From NCBI RefSeq assembly GCF_040499845.1, contig NZ_CP159342.1:6076001-6140000 (forward strand): 64,000 nt of DNA, written 5' to 3'. Origin of the DNA: Micromonospora sp. CCTCC AA 2012012. Lineage in GTDB: Bacteria > Actinomycetota > Actinomycetes > Mycobacteriales > Micromonosporaceae. The notes under the pieces were generated by a model. The model was not told the origin of the DNA, searched no databases, and was given only the letters and a program-made list of their open reading frames with translations. Shown here piece after piece: positions 7,759-62,659 of this stretch (positions are counted from its first letter, which is position 1; the number at the start of each line of letters is the position of its first letter). Both the position numbers and the translations under genes were made by a program.

Positions 7759-8712
7759 GTGACTGAGATGACCTACCGCCGGCTGGGCGACTCCGGGCTC
7801 GTGGTGTCCGTCGTCGGCATCGGCTGCAACAACTTCGGCCGCAAGCTGGACCTCGACGGCACCCGGGCGGTCGTCGACGCCGCCCTCGACGCCGGGATCA
7901 ACTTCTTCGACACCGCCGACATCTACGGTGAGCCGCAGGGCGGCTCCGAGGAGCTGCTCGGCCAGGCGCTCAAGGGGCGCCGCGACGACGTGGTGGTCGC
8001 CACCAAGTTCGGCATGGACATGCACGGGCTCAACGGCCCCGACCACGGTGCCCGGGGCGCCCGGCGCTACATCACCCGGGCCGTCGAGGCGTCCCTGCGC
8101 CGGCTCGACACCGACCACATCGACCTGTACCAGATGCACGAACCCGACCCGGGCACCCCGATCGACGAGACCCTCTCCGCCCTGGACGACCTGGTCCGCG
8201 CCGGCAAGGTGCGCTACCTCGGCAACTCCAACTTCGCCGGCTGGCAGATCGCCGACGCCGACTGGACCGCCTCCTCCCAGGGCCGGGCCCGCTTCATCTC
8301 CGCGCAGAACCACTACTCGCTGCTGGAGCGCTCCGTCGAGGCCGAGGTCATCCCCGCCTGTGAGCGGTTCGGCCTCGGCATGCTGCCGTTCTTCCCGCTC
8401 GCCAACGGCCTGCTCACCGGCAAGTACCAGCGCGACCAGGCCCCGCCCGCCGGCAGCCGGCTCTCCGGCGGCGGCCGGTACGCCGAGCGTCTCGCCGCCG
8501 CGAAGTGGGACACCATCGAGGCGATCTCGGAGTTCGCGGCGCAGCGCGGGCTCAGCATGCTCCAGGTCGCCATCGGTGGACTCGCCGCGCAGCCGGCGGT
8601 GACCTCGGTGATCGCCGGTGCCACCACGCCCGACCAGGTACGCGCCAACGCCGAGGCGGGCGTCTGGCAGCCGACCGACGAGGACCTGGACGCCCTCGAC
8701 GCCATCCTCTGA
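7759..8712 (+). CDS. aldo/keto reductase
   Basis: NAD(P)H-dependent oxidoreductase of the aldo/keto reductase superfamily (TIM barrel, probably the AKR11/YhdN-like bacterial group). The catalytic tetrad is visible: Asp in FFDTADIYG, Tyr in the same motif, Lys in VVATKFG, and His in LYQMHEPD. The C-terminal NADP-binding segment includes SVIAGATTPDQV. The 317-residue length is normal. GTG 7759 lies 6 nt after TAGGCT (7747-7752), a leaderless-type promoter. A strong T-tailed intrinsic terminator follows (8732-8774). The physiological carbonyl substrate cannot be inferred. Confidence 0.93.
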   Translation: MTEMTYRRLGDSGLVVSVVGIGCNNFGRKLDLDGTRAVVDAALDAGINFFDTADIYGEPQGGSEELLGQALKGRRDDVVVATKFGMDMHGLNGPDHGARGARRYITRAVEASLRRLDTDHIDLYQMHEPDPGTPIDETLSALDDLVRAGKVRYLGNSNFAGWQIADADWTASSQGRARFISAQNHYSLLERSVEAEVIPACERFGLGMLPFFPLANGLLTGKYQRDQAPPAGSRLSGGGRYAERLAAAKWDTIEAISEFAAQRGLSMLQVAIGGLAAQPAVTSVIAGATTPDQVRANAEAGVWQPTDEDLDALDAIL

Positions 8713-8908: not shown

Positions 8909-8923
8909 AGGCCCCGCAAGTGA

Positions 8924-9014
8924 CCCACGGGAGCCCGGTGCACCGGGCTGAGAGGGGGGCTGAAGCCCCCGACCGTCGAACCTGATCCGGGTAATGCCGG
9001 CGCAGGGAGGAGTG
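8924..9014 (+). promoter_or_regulatory. TPP (THI-box) riboswitch
   Basis: Thiamine pyrophosphate-sensing aptamer upstream of thiE. The invariant CTGAGA (8948-8953) and the downstream ACCTGATC...GGTAATGCCGGCG block (about 8980-9002) are present. A variable P3-type hairpin of G/C-runs lies near 8955-8970. The closing stem pairs CAC (8926-8928) with GTG (9012-9014), directly abutting the thiE ribosome-binding site (GGGAGGAG, 9005-9012). TPP binding should therefore hide the site and block translation of thiE, the mode known for high-GC bacteria. There is no terminator between aptamer and gene. Confidence 0.95.
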
Positions 9015-9019
9015 TTGCC

Positions 9020-9646
9020 GTGCCGTCCCTGGGACGACTGCATCTGATCACCGACACCCGGCCGGGGCGGCAGCCGCTCACCGTGCTGCGGGCCGCCCTG
9101 CCGGTGGCCCGCGCCGAGCTGGTCGTCCAGGTCCGGGTGGCGGACGACGCCACCGACCGTGAGGCGTACGAGCTGGCCCGCCGGGTGCTCGCGCTCTGCC
9201 GGCCGTACGGGGCGACCTGCCTGGTCAACGACCGGCTGCACGTGGCACTCGCGGTGGGCGCGGCGGGCGGGCACGTCGGCGCGGAGGACCTGCCGGTGCG
9301 GGCCGCCCGTCGGGTGCTCGGCTCCGCCGCGGTGCTCGGCGCCACCGCCCGGGAACCGGGTGCCGCCGCCGCGGCGGTCACCGCCGGGGCGAGCTATCTG
9401 GGCGTCGGCCCCTGCCATCCCACCAGCACCAAACCCGGCCTGCCCACGCCGATCGGCGCGGCCGGGGTGCGGGCGGTCGCCGAGGCGGTGGCCGTACCGG
9501 TGATCGCCATCGGCGGGGTCACGGCGGCGACCGTGCCGGCGCTGCGGGCCGCCGGGGCGTACGGGGTGGCGGTGGTCGGGGCGGTCTCCGGGGCGGCCGA
9601 CCCGGGGCGGGCCACCGCCGAGCTGCTCGGGGCGCTGACGTGCTGA
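9020..9646 (+). CDS. thiE: thiamine-phosphate synthase
   Basis: Joins HMP-pyrophosphate and the thiazole phosphate to make thiamine monophosphate in the cytoplasm. The 208-residue TIM barrel keeps the family motifs: VQVR near residue 37, LVNDRLHVA, GGHVGAEDLP, the pyrophosphate-loop GVGPCHPTSTK, and IAIGGVT. The lysine that usually follows the first motif (REK) appears replaced (VRVAD), which is a small departure. GTG 9020 lies 7 nt after a GGGAGGAG ribosome-binding site embedded in the TPP riboswitch closing stem. It heads the thi operon and overlaps thiO by 7 nt. A second ThiE-like gene occurs in the same operon at 11743. Confidence 0.95.
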   Translation: MPSLGRLHLITDTRPGRQPLTVLRAALPVARAELVVQVRVADDATDREAYELARRVLALCRPYGATCLVNDRLHVALAVGAAGGHVGAEDLPVRAARRVLGSAAVLGATAREPGAAAAAVTAGASYLGVGPCHPTSTKPGLPTPIGAAGVRAVAEAVAVPVIAIGGVTAATVPALRAAGAYGVAVVGAVSGAADPGRATAELLGALTC

Positions 9647-52196: not shown

Positions 52197-53302
52197 CGTC
52201 CCCGTCCCCGTCCCCTTCCCGGTTCCGGATTCCCCGGCCCCGGACGGCGGCCGGGAAGGTCGCCGGGCTGCTGGGGGCGGCGGTCGGCGTGGCCGCCGCC
52301 GGGCTCGCCGCGGGCGTGGTGAGCGAACGCGTCCTGGTCCGCCGGCTCAAGGCCGACCCCGCCGACCCGTACGCGGACGAGGTCTTCGGCGAGCAGCGCT
52401 ACGACGAGTCGTACCGGTTCGAGATGCCGGACGGCACCGACATCCACGTCGAGGTGGTCGAGCCGACCCGGCCGGTGCCGGGGCACCCGACGGTGGTGCT
52501 GGTGCACGGCTTCTGCCTGGACATGGGGACGTTCCACTTCCAGCGCAAGATGCTCGCCGCGCGCGGCGACTACCGGATCGTCGCGTACGACCAGCCCGGC
52601 CACGGCCGGTCGGGCCGGCTGGAGTCCGGGGAGTACGACCTCGCGGCGCTGGGTCGGACGCTGCGCCGGGTGCTCGACGAGACCGCCCCGGAGGGGCCGC
52701 TGGTGCTGGTCGGCCACTCGATGGGCGGCATGACGATCATGGCGTTGGCCGAGCTGTACCCGGAGCTGTTCGGCGACCGGGTGGTCGGGACCGTGCTGAT
52801 GGCCACCTCGGGCGGCCTGCTCGCCGAGACCAAGCTGGTCGCGCCGGCCCTGATCGGTCGGGTCGGCGCCCCGGTGCTCTACATGATGAGCAACGCCACC
52901 CGGTACGGCGGCACGATCATCGACAAGGCCCGCCAGTCCACCGCCAACGTGGCCTGGCTGCTGACCCGTAAGTACGGCTTCGGCACCCCGAAGCCGAGCC
53001 CGGCCCTGGTGTCGTACGTGGAGACGATGAACTCACGGACGTCGGCCGACACGGTGACCCGCTACCTGCGCACCCTGGCCACCCACTCCCGCTATCCGGC
53101 GCTGGCCGCGCTGGCCGCCACGCCGGTGCTGGTGGTGGTCGGGGACAAGGACATGATCACTCCGGTGACCCATTCGGAGGAGATCGTCCGGCGGCTGCCG
53201 CACGCCGAGTTCATCAAGATCCACGACAGTGGGCACGTGGTGATGCTGGAGCACGCCGACCAGGTCAACGCGGCGCTGGAGAGGTTCCTGGAATCGCTAT
53301 GA
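52193..53302 (+). CDS. alpha/beta-fold hydrolase with N-terminal hydrophobic segment
   Basis: A 369-residue alpha/beta hydrolase. After a Pro/Ser-rich start there is one hydrophobic segment (KVAGLLGAAVGVAAAGLAAGVV), probably a membrane anchor. The catalytic triad is visible: Ser in VGHSMGGM, Asp in VVVGDKDMITP, His in HDSGHVVMLEH, with the oxyanion VLVHGFCLDMGTF. It is encoded between alr and tsaE with ATGA overlaps on both sides, a conserved placement in actinobacteria. Substrate unknown; lipase/esterase-like. Confidence 0.9.
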   Translation: MTSPSPSPSRFRIPRPRTAAGKVAGLLGAAVGVAAAGLAAGVVSERVLVRRLKADPADPYADEVFGEQRYDESYRFEMPDGTDIHVEVVEPTRPVPGHPTVVLVHGFCLDMGTFHFQRKMLAARGDYRIVAYDQPGHGRSGRLESGEYDLAALGRTLRRVLDETAPEGPLVLVGHSMGGMTIMALAELYPELFGDRVVGTVLMATSGGLLAETKLVAPALIGRVGAPVLYMMSNATRYGGTIIDKARQSTANVAWLLTRKYGFGTPKPSPALVSYVETMNSRTSADTVTRYLRTLATHSRYPALAALAATPVLVVVGDKDMITPVTHSEEIVRRLPHAEFIKIHDSGHVVMLEHADQVNAALERFLESL

Positions 53303-53781
53303 CGGTCGTGGTGGAGCTGAAGACCGTCGACGACACGCACGAGTTCGGCCGCCGGCTGGCCGGCGTGCTGCGCGCCGGTGACCTGCTGCTGCTCAGCGGC
53401 CCGTTGGGCGCCGGCAAGACCGCGCTCACCCAGGGCATCGGCGCCGGTCTCGGGGTACGCGGGGACATCACCTCGCCGACCTTCGTGATCGCCCGGGTGC
53501 ACCGGCCCGACCCGGCCCGGGGCGGCCGGGTGACCCTGGTGCACGCGGACGCGTACCGGCTGGGGGACGCGGCGGACCCGCGCGCCGAGATCGACGACCT
53601 GGACCTGGACGCCTCGGTGGACGAGGCGGTGACCGTGGTCGAGTGGGGCGAAGGGCTGGTCGAGCAGCTGGTCGACGCGCACCTGCGGGTGCGGATCGAC
53701 CGGCACGACGACGACAGCCGTACCGTCGAACTGACGCCCGTCGGCGGCGACTGGACCGAGCGCCTCGCGGCCCTCGCCTGA
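53299..53781 (+). CDS. tsaE: tRNA threonylcarbamoyladenosine biosynthesis protein TsaE
   Basis: P-loop ATPase that works with TsaB and TsaD in N6-threonylcarbamoyladenosine (t6A37) formation. Walker A is GPLGAGKTALTQG, the family motif SPTFVIARVH follows, and VEWGEGL near residue 115 is the TsaE signature. Length is 160 residues. ATG 53299 overlaps the hydrolase stop. In related genomes tsaB follows directly; here tsaB is 8.2 kb away (61982), with accessory genes between. A perfect palindrome (53778-53791) overlaps its stop codon. Confidence 0.95.
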   Translation: MTVVVELKTVDDTHEFGRRLAGVLRAGDLLLLSGPLGAGKTALTQGIGAGLGVRGDITSPTFVIARVHRPDPARGGRVTLVHADAYRLGDAADPRAEIDDLDLDASVDEAVTVVEWGEGLVEQLVDAHLRVRIDRHDDDSRTVELTPVGGDWTERLAALA

Positions 53782-53791
53782 AAATTTTCAG
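53778..53791. promoter_or_regulatory. 14-bp perfect palindrome at the end of tsaE
   Basis: CTGAAAATTTTCAG (53778-53791) is a perfect palindrome, sharply AT-rich in a GC-rich context, and overlaps the tsaE stop. It lies 50 nt upstream of the glycosidase gene promoter and may be an operator, possibly for the LacI protein encoded at 57307-58311. Confidence 0.45.
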
Positions 53792-53840
53792 CCGTCGCAA
53801 CCGGCTGACCAGGCCTTCTGTCCGGATGCGAGGCAGCGGA

Positions 53841-53870
53841 TTGACGGAGGAAAATTCCTGCTCATAGCGT
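53841..53870 (+). promoter_or_regulatory. promoter of the CBM32 glycosidase gene with dyad in the spacer
   Basis: TTGACG (53841-53846) and TAGCGT (53865-53870) are 18 nt apart. The spacer holds AGGAAAATTCCT (53848-53859), symmetric except at its centre. A perfect TGATATCA (53877-53884) follows near the expected start site. These dyads are plausible operators for the nearby LacI repressor. Confidence 0.65.
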
Positions 53871-53951
53871 CCCAAGTGATATCAGGTGGCACGTGTCGTA
53901 CTCGTCCGAATACGGAGCGTCTTCCACCCTGTTTTCACGAAGGGAACCCCT

Positions 53952-55781
53952 ATGCAAGCCTCGACCCATCGGGCCGGCGCTCCGAAATGGATTGCGGCGG
54001 TCGCCGTGGCGGTCGTGACGGTGGTGCTGGCGACGGTCGCCTTCTACTACAGCGCGACCGCGGATGCCGCCACCGGCATCGCTGACGGCAAGAAGGTGAC
54101 CGTGTCCTCCACCGAACGGAAGACCGGCCACGACCTCAGCGGTCGCAACGCGGTGGACGGTGATTCCCGCACTCGCTGGTCGAGCAGGTTCGCCGACAAG
54201 CAGTGGATCCGGATCGACCTCGGTAGGAAGGTCCACATCGGCCGGGTGGTGCTCCGCTGGGAGGCGGCCTACGGCAAGGCGTACGAGATCCAGGTCTCGG
54301 CGAACGGCGACGACTGGAAGACGGCCTACCGCACCACCACCGGTGACGGTGGCAAGGACGAGCTGACCGTGAACGCCACCGGCCGGTACGTCCGGATGTA
54401 CGGCACGGTGCGGGCCACCCGTTACGGCTTCTCCCTGTACGAGTTCGAGGTCCACGCCGCCACGTCGGGCTCGACCCCGCCGCCGACGAAGGCGTCCGCG
54501 ACCCCGACGGCGAAGCCGTCACCGGGCACGTCCCGGTCGTCCGCGCCGGGCTCGACCGTCATGCCGTCCGCCGGCGGCCCGGCGATCAGTCCGCTGCTCG
54601 TCGGCAACAACGCCTGGTACTACCCGAGCGACAAGGTGTGGAAGGCGAGCCGCGGCGCCGGCCTGAAGATCGTCCGCATCGGCGGCCACGACTACGACGA
54701 GAAGATGCCGTCGAACGCGCAGCTGGAGACCTGGGTCAAGCAGATCAAGGCGATGGGTGCCGAGCCGATGATCCAGGTGTCGAAGCACCGCAGCCCGGAA
54801 GACGCGGCGAACGTCGTCCGGTACTTCAACAGCAAGGGCGGCAACTACGTCAAGTACTGGAACATCGGCAACGAGACGTGGATCGACGCCGGAAAGCCGA
54901 GCAAGAACGAAGAGCTGCGCAAGCTCGCGTTCCAGGAGGCCGGCTACATCAAGGCGCGTTCCTCGGCGATGAAGGCGGTCGACCCGTCCATCAGGATCTT
55001 CGGACCGGACGAGGCCGGCTACATCGACACCATCTACAACAGCCTGCTGGGCGGCGAGGCCGACATCACCGGCAAGGACGCGAAGGGCCGGTACTACATC
55101 GACGGCGTCACCTGGCACCGCTACGTCGGCGGGGATCTGGCCACGGCCGGGGCGAACGACATCATCTCGGGGATCAAGAAGGCCCGGGCCAAGGTCGACG
55201 AGGTCAACAAGAAGCGGGGCCGCACCGGCGGAAACGCCCTCCAGTGGGGCATCGGCGAGTTCAACAGCAAGGCCGGCGGCGGGGCCTGCTCGTACGCCGC
55301 CGGGCAGATGTTCGCACAGGTCTACGGTGCGGTGATGAAGTACGGGGGCGCCTACGCCACCGCGTGGTCGATGGCCGAGCACGGCGGTAGCTGCACCGAG
55401 AGCGACTTCGGTTTCCTCGACGCCAACCTGAAGCCGCGGTCGACCTATTACCACCTGCAGCTGGTGTCGCAGAACTTCACCGGTCGGTACGCGGACGGCA
55501 CCTCCAACGTCTCCACGATGCGGACCTACGGTGCGGTCGACGGCGGCAAGGTCGCGGTGATGCTGGTCAACGTCGGCGGGAAGCAGACCTGCAAGGTCCG
55601 GCTGAACACCGACGGCCAGACCGGCGGCTGCACGGTCGACATCGGCGCGGGTCTCAAGGTCACGCACACCCAGACGATCGGCGCGGCGACGTCGATGGTG
55701 CTGGTCTTCGACAAGAGCGGCAAGCTGACCAAGCGGATCACCTACGCCGCGGGTGGCGCGCCGAGGACCGAGACGTTCTGA
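53952..55781 (+). CDS. secreted F5/8 type C (CBM32) glycoside hydrolase
   Basis: A 609-residue exported protein: N-terminal signal-type segment (WIAAVAVAVVTVVLATVAFYYS), a discoidin/CBM32 carbohydrate-binding domain (about 42-175; DGDSRTRWSS, WIRIDLGRKVHIGRVVLRWE), a Pro/Thr/Ser linker, and a TIM-barrel catalytic domain of clan GH-A type. Likely acid/base Glu308 (WNIGNETW) and nucleophile Glu436 (GIGEFNS). A C-terminal beta-sandwich (VAVMLVNVGGKQTCKVRL) follows, as in arabinofuranosidase-like GH51/GH39 enzymes. ATG 53952 follows gaaggga. It stands opposite a LacI-kinase operon that may control it. Exact glycan specificity is unknown. Confidence 0.85.
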   Translation: MQASTHRAGAPKWIAAVAVAVVTVVLATVAFYYSATADAATGIADGKKVTVSSTERKTGHDLSGRNAVDGDSRTRWSSRFADKQWIRIDLGRKVHIGRVVLRWEAAYGKAYEIQVSANGDDWKTAYRTTTGDGGKDELTVNATGRYVRMYGTVRATRYGFSLYEFEVHAATSGSTPPPTKASATPTAKPSPGTSRSSAPGSTVMPSAGGPAISPLLVGNNAWYYPSDKVWKASRGAGLKIVRIGGHDYDEKMPSNAQLETWVKQIKAMGAEPMIQVSKHRSPEDAANVVRYFNSKGGNYVKYWNIGNETWIDAGKPSKNEELRKLAFQEAGYIKARSSAMKAVDPSIRIFGPDEAGYIDTIYNSLLGGEADITGKDAKGRYYIDGVTWHRYVGGDLATAGANDIISGIKKARAKVDEVNKKRGRTGGNALQWGIGEFNSKAGGGACSYAAGQMFAQVYGAVMKYGGAYATAWSMAEHGGSCTESDFGFLDANLKPRSTYYHLQLVSQNFTGRYADGTSNVSTMRTYGAVDGGKVAVMLVNVGGKQTCKVRLNTDGQTGGCTVDIGAGLKVTHTQTIGAATSMVLVFDKSGKLTKRITYAAGGAPRTETF

Positions 55782-55828
55782 GCGGACGGCCCGGGCGACC
55801 GCGTTCCGGAGCGTGAGCGACAGCGGGC

Positions 55829-55860
55829 GGGTCCCGGGGTGCAGGGCACTCCCGGGACCC
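55829..55860. terminator. terminator after the glycosidase gene
   Basis: A 14-bp stem with one bulged T at 55850 (arms 55829-55842 and 55846-55860) and a 3-nt loop. It lies between the glycosidase stop (55781) and the convergent kinase stop (55907). Confidence 0.8.
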
Positions 55861-55906
55861 GTTCCGCGCGTCCACGAGGTGGCGGTCCGGCGGCCGGCGC
55901 CGCTCG

Positions 55907-57310
55907 TCAGCCGCCGGTCGACCCGTCGCCCCGGGCACCGAGAGCCGTCCGGAAGGCCACGGCGAACCGCTCAAGGGCGCGGTCGAGTTCCGCTGCCGCG
56001 GCGGCGGTGACCCGGCCCTCGCGTACGCGATCGGCGACGCGGCGCCGGAGGGCGCCCATCTCACGGTCCAGGGCACGGCCGTCCGACACCCCGTTCCTCG
56101 TCAGGTTGGCAAGGGCCTGCCGCAGGTCCTGTGCCGCGTCCGGGGACATCCCGCCCTGCCGCGCGTTGCGGTCGATCACCGCGTACACCTGCTCCCGCGC
56201 TGCGGACACGGTCAACAACGGCGTCCGGCCGGTACGGCGGGGCGGGGCGGGGCGCGGGCTGCCCACGGTTGCGCCCGTCGTCCTCGGCGGGCCCGGCGTG
56301 CCGGGCACCGGAGTGGCCGGCGGCGTCGGCGCGGTACGCGGCGGTGGGTCGCCCGGCGACGACGCCCAGACCGCGACGACGCCGACGGCGGCGGCGAGGC
56401 CGAGGCCGGTCGTCACGATCGCCCGGCGTCGGGCCGGCCGTCGGGGCGGCGGTCCGGGCCAGGCCCGGACCGCCGCCGAGGATCGGCCGTCCACCAGGGC
56501 CATGAGGCTCGCGGCGACCTCCGCCGCGCTCGGTCGCAGGTCCGGCTCGGGACGCAGGCAGCGCTGACAGAGTTCCGCCAGCTCGGCCGGCGCGCCGGGG
56601 GGTGCCGGCGGCACGCTCGGCCGCCGGACCGCCGCCAGCTCGTCCCAGGTGGTCTCGGGGTACGGCGGCCGGCCGGCCAGCATCTCGAACAGCAGCGCGC
56701 CCAGTGCGTAGACGTCGCTCGCCGGTGCCACGGCCGCCCCGGCGACCCGCTCCGGCGGGACGTACGGCGGCGTGCCGAACGTCCAGCCCGACCCGTCGTC
56801 GGGTTCGCCGATCCGGGCGTTGATCCCGAAGTCGACGACTTTGACACCGTCCGGTGTGAGCAGCACGTTCTCCGGGTTGATGTCCCGGTGCACGATCGCG
56901 TCGGCGTGCGCCGCCACCAGCACCCGGGCGACCCGTTGGGCGATCCGCGCCGCGTCCGGCCAGGACAGCGGCCCGTCCGCGAGCACTTCGGCGAGGGGCT
57001 CGCCGGTCACCAACTGCATGACCATGAAGAAGACCCGGTCGCCGTCGGGGGAGGTGGCCTCGCCGCAGTCGTGGACGGTGACCACGTCGGGGTGGGCGAG
57101 CCGGGCGGTGGCGCGCGACTCACGCCGGAGCAACTCGTGTGCAGCGGCGCGCAGCGGCGCGTCGACGACCGGCAGCTTGACCGCCACCATCCGGTGCAGC
57201 GTCTCGTCGTGAGCCCGCCAGATCACCGACATGCCGCCCAGGCGCAGCCGCTCCGTCATCCGGTAGCGGCCGGCGAGCAGGTCGCCCTCGACCGGCCAGG
57301 GCCGGCTCAT
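55907..57310 (-). CDS. Ser/Thr protein kinase with atypical catalytic loop
   Basis: Hanks-type kinase of 467 residues: N-terminal kinase domain (about 15-270), Pro/Arg juxtamembrane stretch, one transmembrane helix (IVTTGLGLAAAVGVVAVWAS), and a ~150-residue extracytoplasmic Pro-rich and helical part without PASTA repeats. VAVK Lys45, the catalytic HRD (141-143) and DFG (160-162) are present, but the loop is HRDINPEN, with Asn145 where Ser/Thr kinases have Lys, and the P-loop is short (LRLGGMSVIW). APE is PPE. It may be weakly active or a pseudokinase. ATG 57310 overlaps the LacI gene stop (ATGA). Confidence 0.88.
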   Translation of the reverse strand: MSRPWPVEGDLLAGRYRMTERLRLGGMSVIWRAHDETLHRMVAVKLPVVDAPLRAAAHELLRRESRATARLAHPDVVTVHDCGEATSPDGDRVFFMVMQLVTGEPLAEVLADGPLSWPDAARIAQRVARVLVAAHADAIVHRDINPENVLLTPDGVKVVDFGINARIGEPDDGSGWTFGTPPYVPPERVAGAAVAPASDVYALGALLFEMLAGRPPYPETTWDELAAVRRPSVPPAPPGAPAELAELCQRCLRPEPDLRPSAAEVAASLMALVDGRSSAAVRAWPGPPPRRPARRRAIVTTGLGLAAAVGVVAVWASSPGDPPPRTAPTPPATPVPGTPGPPRTTGATVGSPRPAPPRRTGRTPLLTVSAAREQVYAVIDRNARQGGMSPDAAQDLRQALANLTRNGVSDGRALDREMGALRRRVADRVREGRVTAAAAAELDRALERFAVAFRTALGARGDGSTGG

Positions 57311-58311
57311 GCCGACTCGCGCAGGACCAGCTCGATCGGCAGCACGGCGTCGCCGGACGGCTCGCCGGGCGTCGACAGGTCCGTGAGCAGCAGCTCCGCG
57401 GCGAGCCTGCCGAGCGTCTCGATCGGCTGGCGTACGGTCGAGAGCGCGGGCGTCGCCATCCGGGCGACGGCCGCGTCGTCGAATCCGATGACGGCGACGT
57501 CGTCGGGGACGCGGCGCCCGGCCCGGCGCAGCGCGTGCAGCGCGCCCACCGCCATCAGGTCCGAGGCGACGAAGACCGCGTCCAGGCGGGGTTGCCGGTC
57601 CAACAGCCAGTTCATGGCGTGGGCGCCGGAACCCTGGGTGAAGTCGCCGTGGGCGACCGGCGGAACGGGCAACCCGGCACTCGCCAGCGCGGACCGGTAT
57701 CCGGTCAGCCGGCCGTCGGCGGCGGAGACCCCCGGTGGGCCGGCGATGTTGGTGATCACGCGACGGCCCTGGTGCGCCAGGTACTCGACGGCCTGCCGCG
57801 CGCCACCGGCGTTGTCGACGTCGACGTACCGGCCGGAGGCCCTGCCGGGTGGGCGTCCGATCCAGCGCAGCGGGACGCCGGCGCCGGCCACGACGGTGGC
57901 CAGTGGGTCCTCCTTGTGGAGGCTGGCCACCAGGAGAGCGTCGGCGTGCCGGCCGGCCAGGAACCGCTCGGTCGAGTGCAGCGCGTCGCTGCACGACGAG
58001 GTCAGGACCAGGGAGATGCCCTCGCGGGACAGGGCCTGCTCCACCCCGGCGACCAGGCGGGCGAAGTACGGGTCGGCGAACATGCGGCTGGTCGACCGGC
58101 CGATCAGAAGGGCGACGGCGGCCGGGGCCCCGCTGCTCGTCGTGCCGGCGAGGCGCTGACGGCGCTGGTATCCGAGGCTGCCCAGCGCGGCGTGGACCCG
58201 CTGGCGGACCTGGGTGGTGACCCGGGCCGACCCGGTCAGCACCCGGGAGACTGTGGCCTGCGACACGCCAGCGGCCGCCGCCACGTCCGAGAGTCTGGGC
58301 TTCTCAGGCAT
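57307..58311 (-). CDS. LacI-family transcriptional regulator
   Basis: A 334-residue LacI/GalR repressor. The N-terminal helix-turn-helix is RLSDVAAAAGVSQATVSRVLTGS followed by the hinge helix; the ligand-binding type I periplasmic fold has VALLIGRSTSRMFADPYFARLV and DDVAVIGFDDAAVARMATPALSTVRQP. ATG 58311 (MPEKPRL) is the expected family start. It heads a two-gene minus-strand operon with the kinase and lies near a secreted glycosidase gene, so control of glycan use is the natural hypothesis. A candidate promoter (ATGACC, 18 nt, CATTCT) lies in the 116-nt gap to ung. Confidence 0.93.
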   Translation of the reverse strand: MPEKPRLSDVAAAAGVSQATVSRVLTGSARVTTQVRQRVHAALGSLGYQRRQRLAGTTSSGAPAAVALLIGRSTSRMFADPYFARLVAGVEQALSREGISLVLTSSCSDALHSTERFLAGRHADALLVASLHKEDPLATVVAGAGVPLRWIGRPPGRASGRYVDVDNAGGARQAVEYLAHQGRRVITNIAGPPGVSAADGRLTGYRSALASAGLPVPPVAHGDFTQGSGAHAMNWLLDRQPRLDAVFVASDLMAVGALHALRRAGRRVPDDVAVIGFDDAAVARMATPALSTVRQPIETLGRLAAELLLTDLSTPGEPSGDAVLPIELVLRESA

Positions 58312-58427
58312 CGAACTCCGCTGTTCGTTCGGCCGGGGAATCACAGAATGCCCTATCCTCCCGTGCCGGGTCATGTCGGTCGCGGCTGGTAGGAAAGAGG
58401 CCCGACCCAGCCGACGAGAGGTTGCCG

Positions 58428-59129
58428 ATGCCCGACGACACCCCCACCCTCGACCTGTTGGCGCTGCTCCCCGACGACTGGCGCGAGGTGCTCACCCCGC
58501 ACCTCGACCCGGCCCGCACCGCCGCGCTGGCCGAGTTCGTCGCCCGGGAGTACGCGACGCAGACCGTCTTCCCGCCGGTCGAGGACCTCTTCTCCGCCTA
58601 CCGGCTGTGCGGGCCGGCGCAGTGCCGGGTGCTGATCCTCGGGCAGGACCCCTACCACAAGGCGGGGCAGGCGCACGGCCTCAGCTTCAGCGTGCGCGAG
58701 GGCGTGACGGTGCCGCCGTCGCTGCGCAACGTCTTCAAGGAGTTGGGCGAGGACCTGGGCGTGCCGAAGCCCCGCAGCGGCAACCTGGACGGCTGGGCGG
58801 CGCAGGGTGTGCTGCTGCTCAACTCGGTGCTCACCGTCCGCCAGGCCACCCCCGGGTCGCACGCGAACTCCGGGTGGGAGGAGTTCACCGACGCCACCAT
58901 CCGTGCCCTGGACGCCCTCGACCAGCGTGTCGTCTTCCTGCTCTGGGGCGGGTACGCCCGCAAGAAGGCGGCCCTGGTCACCAACCCGCGGCACGTGGTG
59001 CTGGAGGCGGGGCATCCCAGCCCGATGAACCCGCGCGGCTTCCTCGGCAGCCGGCCGTTCAGCGCGGCCAACAAGGCCCTCGCCGACGCCGGCCTGCCCA
59101 CCGTCGACTGGGAGCGGTCAGCCGGCTGA
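58428..59129 (+). CDS. ung: uracil-DNA glycosylase (family 1)
   Basis: Removes uracil from DNA in base-excision repair. The catalytic aspartate is D74 in ILGQDPYHKAGQAHGLSFSV, and the leucine-intercalation/His loop is GHPSPMNPRGF. Length is 233 residues. ATG 58428 follows gagagg by 6 nt; a TTG at 58422 in frame would overlap that site. It stands alone between the LacI gene (divergent) and the radical SAM cassette, and is followed by a hairpin. Confidence 0.97.
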   Translation: MPDDTPTLDLLALLPDDWREVLTPHLDPARTAALAEFVAREYATQTVFPPVEDLFSAYRLCGPAQCRVLILGQDPYHKAGQAHGLSFSVREGVTVPPSLRNVFKELGEDLGVPKPRSGNLDGWAAQGVLLLNSVLTVRQATPGSHANSGWEEFTDATIRALDALDQRVVFLLWGGYARKKAALVTNPRHVVLEAGHPSPMNPRGFLGSRPFSAANKALADAGLPTVDWERSAG

Positions 59130-59252: not shown

Positions 59253-59645
59253 ATGGCAAAGATCATCAACCTGCGCGCGCCGGAATCGATGCGCCTGCAC
59301 GACCTGCCCGAGCGGGAGATCGAGAAGTACGTCACCGAGCAGGCCGACCGGATCCTCTCCGTGCTCCCGGAGGAGATCCGGCCGGCTGGCGTCAACACCG
59401 TCGTCATCGACGCGCTGCGTCCCGGCACGGCGGCGGACCCGGGTGTCTGGGCCGAGTGGAGCCGGGCCTGCTGCGGACACCGCAGCCGGATCGAGGACTT
59501 CGAGGAGCCGGTCCTGCAGGAGTGGACCGCCGACGGCAGCCTGACGCACATCGACGCCCGCGGTCAGCACGTCGAGTCCCAGCTGCGCCACACCACCCTC
59601 GAATATCCCGACATGCACCAGGCCGGCGGGGCCGGCGCGGCGTAG
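59253..59645 (+). CDS. 130-residue protein of unknown family, first gene of the radical SAM cassette
   Basis: I do not recognise this protein. The 130 residues start MAKIINLRAPESMRLHDLP, continue with a charged helical segment (EREIEKYVTEQADRIL), then RPGTAADPGVWAEWSRACCGHRSR with an adjacent Cys pair, and end in a Gly/Ala-rich tail (QAGGAGAA). There is no signal peptide. ATG 59253 follows gtgaggtgg. It precedes the radical SAM gene by 11 nt, the position where a RiPP precursor or its leader-binding partner would sit. Candidate modifiable residues include the Trp pair (VWAEW), the Cys pair and the Tyr near the end, but this is speculation. Confidence 0.75.
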   Translation: MAKIINLRAPESMRLHDLPEREIEKYVTEQADRILSVLPEEIRPAGVNTVVIDALRPGTAADPGVWAEWSRACCGHRSRIEDFEEPVLQEWTADGSLTHIDARGQHVESQLRHTTLEYPDMHQAGGAGAA

Positions 59646-59656
59646 GTCCGGCCGCC

Positions 59657-61042
59657 ATGCCACCGGTCGCGCTCACCCTGCACCGGAGCCGGTTCGACCC
59701 GGACCGGGTTCGGACCCTGCCCCGCGACGGGCACCTCCTGGTCATCGACCAGGTCTCCGGCCGGTGGACCACGGTCGACCAGCGGGTGGAGCCCCTGCTC
59801 CCGCTGGTCGACCAGCCGCCGGCGCTGCTGCCCACCGCCGCCCGGGAGCCGGTCGCCCGGCTCCGCCAGCTCCTGCTCGACCAGGGGATCGGGGTGGTCG
59901 GCGGTGAGAAACGGTTCAGCGAGCTGAACACGCTGATCCTGAAACTCACCAACGCGTGCAACCACGCCTGTGCCTACTGCTACGACTTCGAGGTCTTCGA
60001 GAAGGCCACCACCATCGACCGGGCGGTCGCGGTGGCCGCGATCGAGCAGGCTCTGGAGATCGCACCGGCCGAGCTGGCGGTGATCCTGCACGGCGGCGAA
60101 CCGATGCTGCTCTGGCCGCTCATCGAGGACCTGGTGGTCACCGGGGAACGGCTCGCCGCCGAGCGCGGCCGGCGGATCCGGTTCGTCGGGCAGAGCAACT
60201 TCTCCCGGCTCACCGACCGGGTGGTGGAGTTCTCCGGCGCCCACGACATCGCCTGGGGTGTCTCGGTCGACGGGCCACCGCCGGTGCACGACCTGTTCCG
60301 CCGGGACCACCGCGGGCGCGGCACGTACGACGCGTTCGCCTCGGCGCTGGCCCGCTACCCGGACTTCGTCCGGTCGGCCGGGGTGATGAGCACCATCACG
60401 GCCGCGAACCAGCGGCTGCTGCTGCCGCTGGCCCGGCACTTCCGGGACGTCGGGATGACTACCTGGGACTGAAGCCTCTTCCAACCGATCGGGCGCGGTC
60501 GCGCCGACGCGGCCCGGTTCGGTCTGGATCCGGCGGTGCTGGCCGAGGCGTGGGAGGAGCTCTTCGTGGCGGTGGAGGGCGGCGAGTTTGCCGGCTTCGC
60601 CGTGCTGCCGGTGAAGAAGTACCTGGACAACTTCCTCGCCGGGCCGGGCGGCAACATGTGCCTGCGCGGCGACTGCGGGGCCGCCCGGGACCTGCTCTCG
60701 GTCTCCTCGGACGGCACCGTGGAGGCGTGCGACTGCATCGACCCGACCGGCCCCCTCGCCGGGCTCGGCACGGTGGCCGGCGGTCTGGCCGACGCCCGAC
60801 GCAGTGACGTCGCCACCACCATCCGGCACCGTGACCTCTCGGCGAGCCGGTGCGCGGACTGCCTCTGGCTGGGGGTGTGCGGCGGCACCTGCCTGGCGCA
60901 CGCCCCGTCGCTCAACGAGGTGTGGGACAGCGGCTGCGCGGTGGCGTTGAGCGCCTTCGACCGGATCTCGCTCTCGCTGGTGCGCGGGGACGGGCTGCTG
61001 GACTGGCTGCGCAGCCTGACGGCGGGATGCGCCCATGCGTAG
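59657..61042 (+). pseudogene. radical SAM/SPASM maturase-like gene interrupted by in-frame TGA
   Basis: A 462-codon frame from ATG 59657 with one TGA at codon 272 (60470-60472); both halves are in the same frame. The first half has the radical SAM CX3CX2C motif (C101, C105, C108; CNHACAYC), ILHGGEPMLLW and GVSVDGPP. The second half resumes with SLFQPIGRG and carries a SPASM-type cluster set: CLRGDC, EACDC, CX2CX5CX3C (CADCLWLGVCGGTC) and a final Cys. Such proteins usually modify peptides. TGA could be a TGG (Trp) nonsense change, a sequencing error, or a recoded codon. Its stop overlaps the next gene by 8 nt. If translation ends at the TGA, the SPASM domain is lost. Confidence 0.85.
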
Positions 61043-61910
61043 CCTGGCCGCCGCGCTCCAGGAGCTCTCCTTCGACCCGCTTTACGCCCGGGTCCTCGGC
61101 GACCGGGGCACTGCGGAGGTCGACGAGCTGGCCGGCTGGCTCGCCGCGGGCGACCCGTACCGGGAGAACCAGCGGATCGGGCAGGCGTTGGCGGCGGTCG
61201 ACGGTGACAGCGGGCCCGAAGCCGTCCGGCGGGTGCTGGCCCACCAGCTCTGGTGTGCCTGGCGGCAGGCCCGCTGGACGGCGGGGGCGGCCCGGCCGCT
61301 GCCGGTCGCGCAGGTGGTGGGTGCCGAGTGGCTGACCGAGACCGCCGGCCACCCCACGGTGCTGGTGTCCCCGCTGACCGTGCCCGCCCCGGACGCGTTG
61401 CACGCCGTGGCCGAGGTCTTCGGTGACCGTCCGCTGGTCGCCTTCGGCGAGGAGACCAGCAGCGCCGAACTGCCCGACGGGGTCCGGGTGCCGGTGGTCT
61501 CCGAGGGCAGCGGGGCGCTGCGCCGGATCCTGGCCACCCTCGCCGGCGGTGGGGTGCTGTGCACCTACCCGGACTTCGTCTATCCGGGGCGGGGCGTGGA
61601 ACCGGTCACCCTGTTCGGGCGGCGCCGACCGATCTCCGCGGGCTTCGTCTCGCTGGCCGCCCGACCGGGCACCATGCTGCTCCCGGCGGTTCTGCACCGC
61701 CGCGACGACCGGCTGGTCCTGCGGCTCGAGGAGCCGCTGCTGGTCGGTGACCGTCCCGCCGACCGGGCGGCGGCCCGGGCCGGGCTGCGACAGGTGCTGG
61801 CCGACGTGCTGGCCGCGCTGATCAGCCGGGCACCGGAGCAGTGGCTGCTGCTGCCCACGCTGACCTTCGACAGCCCGCAGCTCGCGCCGCTGCCGGCCGC
61901 TGGTCGCTGA
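61035..61910 (+). CDS. LpxL/HtrB-like acyltransferase-domain protein
   Basis: A 291-residue protein whose second half resembles bacterial lipid A/phosphatidylinositol mannoside-type acyltransferases: GGGVLCTYPDFVYPGRG, VTLFGRRRPISAGFVSLA, MLLPAVLHRRDDRLVLRLEEPL, and RAPEQWLLLPTLTFDSP, matching the PEQW-type end motif. The usual catalytic HxxxxD/E is not obvious, since the N-terminal half is diverged, so activity is uncertain. No transmembrane helix is evident. ATG 61035 overlaps the radical SAM frame, so the three genes at 59253-61910 form one operon. The family assignment is moderate. Confidence 0.7.
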   Translation: MRSLAAALQELSFDPLYARVLGDRGTAEVDELAGWLAAGDPYRENQRIGQALAAVDGDSGPEAVRRVLAHQLWCAWRQARWTAGAARPLPVAQVVGAEWLTETAGHPTVLVSPLTVPAPDALHAVAEVFGDRPLVAFGEETSSAELPDGVRVPVVSEGSGALRRILATLAGGGVLCTYPDFVYPGRGVEPVTLFGRRRPISAGFVSLAARPGTMLLPAVLHRRDDRLVLRLEEPLLVGDRPADRAAARAGLRQVLADVLAALISRAPEQWLLLPTLTFDSPQLAPLPAAGR

Positions 61911-61981: not shown

Positions 61982-62659
61982 GTGCTCGTACTGGTGGTGG
62001 ACTCCTCGACGCCCGCGGTGACCGCGGCGCTGGTCGAGGTCTCGGCGGACGGCGTCACGCCCCGCGCGCAGCGGTGCACCGTCGACGCGCGGGCGCACGG
62101 TGAGCTGCTCGCCCCGCAGGTCGACGCGGTGCTGGCCGACCTCGACGCCCGCCCGCGTGACCTGACCGCGATCGTCGCGGGGCTCGGCCCCGGCCCGTTC
62201 ACCGGCCTGCGGGTGGGGCTGGTCACGGCCGCCACCATGGGGCAGGTGCTCGGCATCCCCACGTACGGTGTCTGCTCGCTGGACGGCATCGGCCACCCGG
62301 CGGCGGCCGGCGAGCCGGTCCTCGCGGCGAGCGACGCCCGGCGTCGGGAGGTCTACTGGGCCGTCTACGACGGCGCGGGCCAGCGGATCGCCGGGCCGAA
62401 CGTGGACGCCCCCGCGGTCGCCGCCGAGCGGGCCCGCGACCTGGCCGTCACGGTCGCGGTCGGTGACGGCGCGCACCGGTACGCGGACGTGCTCGGGCTG
62501 CCGCTGCGGGCCGAGCCGCGCTACCCGGACCCGACGGTGCTGGCCGCGCTGGCCGCGGAGCGGATCCGGGCGCAGGCCCCCGGCGAGCCGCTCACCCCGC
62601 TCTACCTGCGCCGCCCCGACGCGGTCGCCGCGACCGGCCACAAGCCGGTCCTGCCATGA
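61982..62659 (+). CDS. tsaB: tRNA threonylcarbamoyladenosine biosynthesis protein TsaB
   Basis: Non-catalytic ASKHA-fold partner of TsaD in t6A37 synthesis. The N-terminal VVDSSTPAVTAAL and the signature GLGPGPFTGLRVGLVTA are clear. The length, 225 residues, is normal. GTG 61982 lies 8 nt after TAGGCT (61968-61973), so it has its own promoter, needed here because tsaE is far upstream. It overlaps rimI by 4 nt (ATGA). Confidence 0.95.
   Translation: MLVLVVDSSTPAVTAALVEVSADGVTPRAQRCTVDARAHGELLAPQVDAVLADLDARPRDLTAIVAGLGPGPFTGLRVGLVTAATMGQVLGIPTYGVCSLDGIGHPAAAGEPVLAASDARRREVYWAVYDGAGQRIAGPNVDAPAVAAERARDLAVTVAVGDGAHRYADVLGLPLRAEPRYPDPTVLAALAAERIRAQAPGEPLTPLYLRRPDAVAATGHKPVLP

Follow-up and report, generated by a model that had tools for sequence, protein, structure and literature searches.

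What would a gene cassette modify that places a small protein of no recognised family beside a radical S-adenosylmethionine (SAM) enzyme and a relative of the lipid acyltransferase LpxL? Three such genes, here called A, B and C, lie in a 64,000-nt stretch of the Micromonospora sp. CCTCC AA 2012012 genome (NZ_CP159342.1, positions 6,076,001 to 6,140,000 of the forward strand), which we refer to as the window and whose internal coordinates we use throughout. A sequence-only reading of the window had proposed an undescribed peptide-modification cassette. Our comparisons point the same way: the cassette appears to belong to no named family of peptide or protein modification systems, and the small protein is its likely substrate. 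We consider it probable that the three genes form a ribosomal peptide-modification cassette in which B acts on a conserved motif of the A protein, with a Trp-Arg/Lys cyclophane as the preferred product, and in which C has been repurposed. The features that the argument draws on are these:

59253..59645, forward strand: gene A, probable substrate protein, 130 aa, with Cys-Cys at residues 73-74
59448..59474, forward strand: predicted modified motif of gene A, W66-A-E-W69-S-R71-A-C73-C74, from conservation in 74 aligned relatives
59657..61042, forward strand: gene B, encoding a radical SAM/SPASM maturase (PF04055, TIGR04085) and broken by a stop in the window strain
59957..59980, forward strand: CxxxCxxC radical SAM cluster motif of gene B (C101, C105, C108), invariant in 39/39 relatives
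60470..60472, forward strand: in-frame TGA of gene B, found by reading the frame, at a position occupied by Trp in 81/81 relatives that cover it
61035..61910, forward strand: gene C, LpxL-like (PF03279-related) protein of 291 aa without an HX4D/E dyad, from weak Pfam and NCBI models

The A and B genes are separated by 11 nt, and B and C overlap by 8 nt. The three-gene layout described earlier stands in its positions and spacing, but the in-frame TGA that interrupts B had been overlooked. The Cys pair of the small protein was likewise correctly identified, but the Gly/Ala tail noted with it is not a feature of the family.

We examined the conservation of the putative substrate. A search with the A protein alone returned three proteins including itself, and a search with a five-sequence alignment returned 77, again including itself. 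The hosts of this family are Streptomyces, Kitasatospora, Mycolicibacterium, Antribacter, a Frankiaceae metagenome-assembled genome (MAG), a Verrucomicrobiae MAG and many metagenomes. None of the family members scanned had a Pfam match above cut-off or matched an NCBIfam family, consistent with the earlier view that the protein is unrecognised. In an alignment of 74 sequences (L002, P0146 and P0157 were dropped from the preceding alignment, and P0125 is in neither), W69, R71, C73 and I80 are each present in 74/74. W66 (73/74), A72 (72/74), C74 (70/74) and R77 (69/74) are nearly as constant, and position 70 is T, S or E in 69, 3 and 2 sequences, respectively. Acidic residues follow at positions 81 (D/E in 69/74) and 82 (73/74), and H106-x-E108-S109 is conserved downstream of the motif. 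Proteins of the window's clade are mostly about 117-137 aa long, conserved over their whole length, and carry the motif centrally. A structure model of the A protein is confident (predicted local distance difference test score, pLDDT, 87.3) and places the motif on a strand that runs into a helix; comparison of this model with solved folds gave no good match. The conserved leader and variable core that had been anticipated for a precursor peptide are thus not seen in the window's clade, where A appears to be a conserved folded protein with an invariant motif in its middle.

A and B relatives occur together far more often than chance allows. Protein clusters were compared by the size of their longest contig, using 76 of the 77 A matches (P0161 has no size) and 85 of the 99 B matches (P0087 and the distant P0090-P0102 were left out). 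Twenty-seven of the 76 A clusters, one of them the window itself, share this size exactly with one of the 85 B clusters. When the sizes were jittered in 2000 trials, the mean was 0.33 A-B matches and the maximum was 4. Mycolicibacterium helvum carries both relatives by name, with differing longest contigs, and is missed by this count, so 27/76 is probably an underestimate. The order A-B-C is kept in the sister species (G266) and in the Frankiaceae MAG (G387). Co-occurrence elsewhere, which the sequence-only reading had made decisive for its proposal, is therefore found in these genomes, in the contig-size matches and in the distant loci described below.

Distant relatives of B share the same surroundings. 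Among loci with readable DNA, nine distinct ones carry a B relative scoring at least 208 bits (the first part of the window's own gene B scores 395). A C relative lies directly downstream of B at eight of the nine, and all eight also have a small adjoining open reading frame (ORF) that bears the motif. At five distant loci, in Thiodiazotropha, Duganella, two genomes of the genus Streptomyces and genome G1220, the B relative (208-351 bits) has a C relative immediately next to it. In Candidatus Thiodiazotropha (L003), the B relative is preceded by a small ORF with the end AEWSKATC-EWSKATC and followed by a PF03279 protein (4.8e-18). The Duganella fentianensis locus (L004) has a precursor ending LWEKTTCA, then B, then C. 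L090 and L094, from the genus of Streptomyces sp. GQFP, have a 240-aa precursor ending SSWSKTTCC or PSWSKTTCC, followed by B and C. G1220 (L095), which belongs to the same taxonomic order as the window strain, has B, C and then a precursor ending LWSKATCG. The motif forms the precursor C-terminus in all five, in the form W-[SE]-K-[AT]-T-C with S, S, S, S and E at its second position, and the distant precursors that were scanned are not covered by curated Pfam or NCBIfam families. A count of the pattern W[STE][KR][AT][TC]C over 86 records (3.2 million six-frame codons) gave 10 matches; nine of these fall in the eight triad loci (two in L003) and the remaining one in L006. Motif position and neighbourhood agree across lineages whose leaders look unrelated. 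Among 80 loci listed by a generic radical SAM motif search, C is present at L003 and L004 and absent from the remaining 78; close B relatives are missing from this list, and the 78 serve as a background set.

Some neighbours of the distant triads fit peptide processing, but they are not common to the different lineages. Just upstream of the Cys-Cys-ending Streptomyces precursor, L090 has a gene for a PF02441 flavoprotein (7856-8455, 55.8 bits); by eye, L094 has the same arrangement. The PF02441 superfamily includes enzymes that decarboxylate the C-terminal Cys of other ribosomally synthesized and post-translationally modified peptides (RiPPs). An S49 peptidase gene (88.9 bits) lies downstream of the Thiodiazotropha triad with one small gene between. 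On the other strand of the Duganella locus (L004 7675-8846) is a RiPP enzyme of the multinuclear non-heme iron-dependent oxidative enzyme (MNIO) type (PF05114, 134 bits; ApyH model 258.7 of 400), accompanied by a small ORF that matches the ApyA model weakly (22.3 of 40).

The assignment of B as a radical SAM/SPASM protein was confirmed by profile searches. Its first half matches Pfam Radical_SAM (PF04055, 8e-12); in its second half the Pfam SPASM model stays under its cut-off (17.8 versus 21.5 bits), and the NCBIfam SPASM model TIGR04085 exceeds its own (35.9 versus 27). The protein database holds 85 relatives of B at 44-66% identity. For the intact relative P0005, the top NCBIfam models are PapB (NF047865, 132.5 bits, cut-off 340), QhpD (TIGR03906, 105.4 bits, cut-off 453) and DynA (103.2 bits), all far below cut-off. 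Three distant B relatives score 156.2, 121.7 and 142.8 bits with the PapB model, also short of 340. Models of cyclophane maturases were not reached by P0005 either: DarE (NF038005) gave 59.1 of 650 bits, FxsB 67.5 of 370, XyeB 51.7 of 450, YhhB 86.7 of 445 and GrrM 49.1 of 310. Scores below cut-off rank only distant kinship, and on these profiles gene B groups with the maturases of peptides and proteins.

In the window strain, however, the TGA at 60470-60472 truncates the gene B product to 271 aa; beyond it, the frame stays open for 189 codons, to 61042. Comparison with relatives P0005-P0089 showed Trp at this site in 81 of the 85; the remaining four do not cover it, since the protein stops short of the site or seems frameshifted upstream. 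A separate alignment of gene B has Trp there in 39/39 relatives, and gene B is intact in the sister genome. The ratio of nonsynonymous to synonymous substitution rates (dN/dS) between window and sister is about 0.05 both upstream and downstream of the stop, which leaves three readings of the stop: a recent event, a sequencing error or, improbably, a recoded codon. The truncated protein is represented in the protein database by three member sequences on three contigs, which do not necessarily come from independent strains. Decoding of the TGA, as selenocysteine or by readthrough, would restore a full-length enzyme. The window genome encodes a SelA-like protein (1.1e-97; G000:C1:1793271-1794299), so that selenocysteine decoding may exist, a stable hairpin lies 3' of the TGA (z -2.47), and dN/dS is no higher beyond the stop than ahead of it. 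Nevertheless, the site is never Cys in the relatives, none of the four short relatives (0/4) terminates at the stop position, and the sister, with a sense codon at this site, has a hairpin of nearly equal energy (-35.2 versus -35.7 kcal/mol; z -0.66). We regard decoding as very improbable. The premature stop probably means that the cassette does not work at present in the window strain. The SelA match of the sister genome is broken into four pieces.

The matches behind the LpxL-like assignment of gene C are weak. The window protein scores 17.3 bits against a gathering threshold of 22.3 for PF03279, and 39.4 against 209 for PRK07920, a phosphatidylinositol mannoside (PIM) acyltransferase model. 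Other cassette C proteins lie above the PF03279 threshold (Thiodiazotropha 65.8, Duganella 31.7) or below it (Frankiaceae 11.1). HX4D is the catalytic motif of LpxL-type acyltransferases. We compared this site with all 13 PF03279 matches of seven host genomes, 11 from outside the cassette and two from within it. The HX4D/E dyad is kept in 10 of the 11 non-cassette proteins, among them the window genome's single PF03279 protein outside the cassette, versus none of the eight cassette C proteins. In its place the window, sister and Frankiaceae proteins have T-x4-D, the Thiodiazotropha protein has H-x4-Y, those of Duganella and G1220 have H-x4-P, and both Streptomyces proteins have Q-x4-L. Different halves of the dyad are lost in different lineages, a pattern more in keeping with a changed role than with the decay of one gene. 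The sole exception among the 11 is L128, a non-cassette LpxL-like protein of Thiodiazotropha that reads H-x4-W; its gene adjoins an ABC (ATP-binding cassette) transporter-like gene, and no radical SAM gene lies beside it in the stretch read.

This loss bears on the lipidated product suggested by the sequence-only reading, in which C would acylate the modified peptide. The position of C in the LpxL/PIM acyltransferase superfamily and its place beside B at eight of the nine loci speak for such a lipopeptide cassette; with the dyad gone from every cassette C protein, we find it quite unlikely. Acyl transfer by the usual HX4D mechanism has probably been lost in gene C. As a near-constant partner with an LpxL-type fold, it may instead bind, present or deliver the substrate or product, or have acquired a new activity.

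We propose that B would act on the A protein at W69-[T/S/E]-R71-A-C73-C74. In darobactin, the site W3-S4-K5 carries a bond from C6 of W3 to Cbeta of K5 (PMC9055067). The W-x-[KR] motif of the cassette corresponds to this site, and a Trp-Arg/Lys cyclophane is therefore favoured. Our first choice of chemistry would be a carbon-carbon bond from the Trp69 ring to the Arg71 side chain, like the darobactin bond between Trp3 and Lys5, and the Cys residues would then serve a second modification or function. PapB and QhpD make thioethers, and their models score highest for the intact B relative; the nearest models of B are thus thioether makers, so that a Cys thioether is a serious rival. Here C73 or C74 would be linked to a neighbouring residue such as Asp/Glu 81, 82 or 85 at its beta or gamma carbon, in the manner of PapB ranthipeptides and of the small subunit of quinohemoprotein amine dehydrogenase (QHNDH), with Trp and Arg serving for recognition. 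PapB is described as forming Cys/Asp or Cys/Glu links (PMC9413430), and both the invariance of C73 and the acidic positions 81 and 82 of the A family suit a linkage of this kind. At the five distant loci, however, the last motif Cys is C-terminal or one residue from the end, with no Asp or Glu after it (the first Thiodiazotropha copy precedes a Glu). The Trp and Arg/Lys residues equal the Cys in invariance, and the thioether models indicate distant kinship only, with DynA nearly matching QhpD. We judge the thioether possible but doubtful.

The cyclophane proposal must also be set against the nature of the A protein. A could be a small enzyme or structural protein in which B matures a protein-embedded cofactor, as in QHNDH, and no secreted peptide would be involved. 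The full-length conservation, the confidently modelled fold and the H106-x-E108-S109 element after the motif all agree with this, and inspection of the window by eye revealed neither a transporter nor a protease adjoining the cassette, as had been stated before. The distant triads argue the other way: there the motif ends a short ORF or follows an unrelated leader, as in RiPPs, and Thiodiazotropha has the S49 peptidase downstream. A purely cofactor-forming system seems unlikely to us.

Several observations weigh against a cyclophane-forming peptide cassette of the kind we prefer. The PapB and QhpD models outscore DarE for B, which favours a Cys linkage over a Trp-Arg bond, and a conserved folded protein such as window-clade A appears to be is unusual for a RiPP precursor. 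The motif pattern was derived from the cassettes themselves, so its specificity is partly circular, and the count shows rarity rather than an independent prediction. With the C model, the Streptomyces C proteins score only 28-29 bits, and a Pfam scan of one of them gave nothing at E <= 1. They are so divergent that the alignment at the dyad site is less certain; the C model was built without them, and neither the Streptomyces nor the G1220 matches are self-matches. An archaeal locus (L005, Methanomassiliicoccales) has a B relative of 233 bits without C, and the Duganella MNIO gene, with its own weakly ApyA-like ORF, may be a separate system. Sequence comparison establishes the co-occurrence, the common motif, the stop and the missing dyad, whereas the substrate role of A, the bond and the part played by C are inferred. 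In L005 (9569-12980), the B relative is followed by two more genes judged by eye to be radical SAM-like.

Whether these cassettes amount to a new class is close to an even question, and we lean slightly against claiming it. Such a class of radical SAM-modified peptides and proteins would have two defining features, the site W-[S/T/E]-[K/R]-[A/T]-[T/C]-C and a near-constant, LpxL-derived partner that lacks the dyad and has a new role. The site would be C-terminal in short or unrelated precursors of several lineages and internal to a folded protein in the window's clade. The pairing of a substrate with a radical SAM/SPASM maturase is already known; the motif and the LpxL-like partner appear to be new. 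No peptide cassette combining radical SAM and LpxL-like proteins was found in the open literature, a scope outside which most subscription papers lie, and the only match there to the motif strings was a cone-snail venom paper. If our proposal is true, radical SAM peptide modifiers gain a recognisable cassette with a searchable substrate motif, and a known W-x-K chemistry becomes linked to conserved cysteines. A partner with a conserved yet apparently dead acyltransferase fold would be out of the ordinary. The occurrence of one motif as a C-terminal core in some lineages and within a folded protein in others would let one ask how peptide modification becomes protein maturation.

The cassette is rare and widely scattered. 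In the window strain's own family, gene A turned up in 2/354 genomes. Gene B was found in 2/394 genomes of the class (E <= 1e-50), one of them the window genome, and, at E <= 1e-60, in 1/297 genomes of genus g45 and 1/392 genomes of the genus of Streptomyces sp. GQFP. A further draw gave 2/372 genomes, nearly all of the draw repeating the earlier sample, and seems to add one genome, G1413. The genus Duganella (1/74) and the family Frankiaceae (1/3) yielded only carriers already known. Plasmids gave no match at E <= 1e-20, and viral contigs gave none.

In the window, the cassette is flanked by ung (58422-59129, Pfam UDG) and tsaB (61982-62659, Pfam TsaD family). Both genes are visible in seven same-genus relatives. 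They lie 160-180 bp apart in two (G256 and G302), and in the remaining five they are separated by about 1.1-1.3 kb without a match to A, B or C. This variability suggests that the cassette is probably an insertion between ung and tsaB. The same conserved gene row differs at another point, where about 4.6 kb (53776-58421) separates tsaE (about 53299-53775) from ung; tsaE and ung are adjacent in the sister genome, and the interval reads as a second insertion. By eye, it contains a large secreted-type protein (53886-55781), a Ser/Thr kinase frame on the minus strand (55907-57994) and a LacI-type regulator, also on the minus strand (57307-58374). Elsewhere in the window, a thiamine pyrophosphate (TPP) riboswitch at 8918-9025 (65.4 bits, gathering score 54.3) is the sole Rfam match at gathering score.

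We compared the cassette to known systems. The ranthipeptide maturases of the PapB type supply the best model for B and for three of its distant relatives, and they share the combination of radical SAM and SPASM domains with a small Cys-containing substrate encoded next to them. The cassette differs in its scores (98-156 bits versus the cut-off of 340), in its W-x-[KR]-x-x-C motif and in having an LpxL-like partner. QhpD, which provides the second-best model, is a radical SAM enzyme that acts on a whole small protein; B reaches 105 of the 453 bits required, gene A belongs to no Pfam or NCBIfam family, and no amine dehydrogenase gene was recognised by eye in the listed stretch of the window. 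Gene C resembles the LpxL/HtrB/PatA acyltransferases of PF03279, with which it aligns over its second half, or over nearly its whole length in Thiodiazotropha, and is set apart from them by the missing dyad. Darobactin and the other daropeptides and triceptides made by DarE-type enzymes share a W-x-K/R motif and a radical SAM/SPASM maturase with the cassette. They differ in that B attains only 59 of 650 bits with the DarE model, that the second Trp of the cassette stands at -3 rather than -2, and that Cys residues follow the motif. The daropeptide core W-x-W-S/T-K/R, which carries ether and C-C bonds, is therefore not present in the A family, whose core W-A-E-W-T-R-A-C-C has only W-x-R in common with it.

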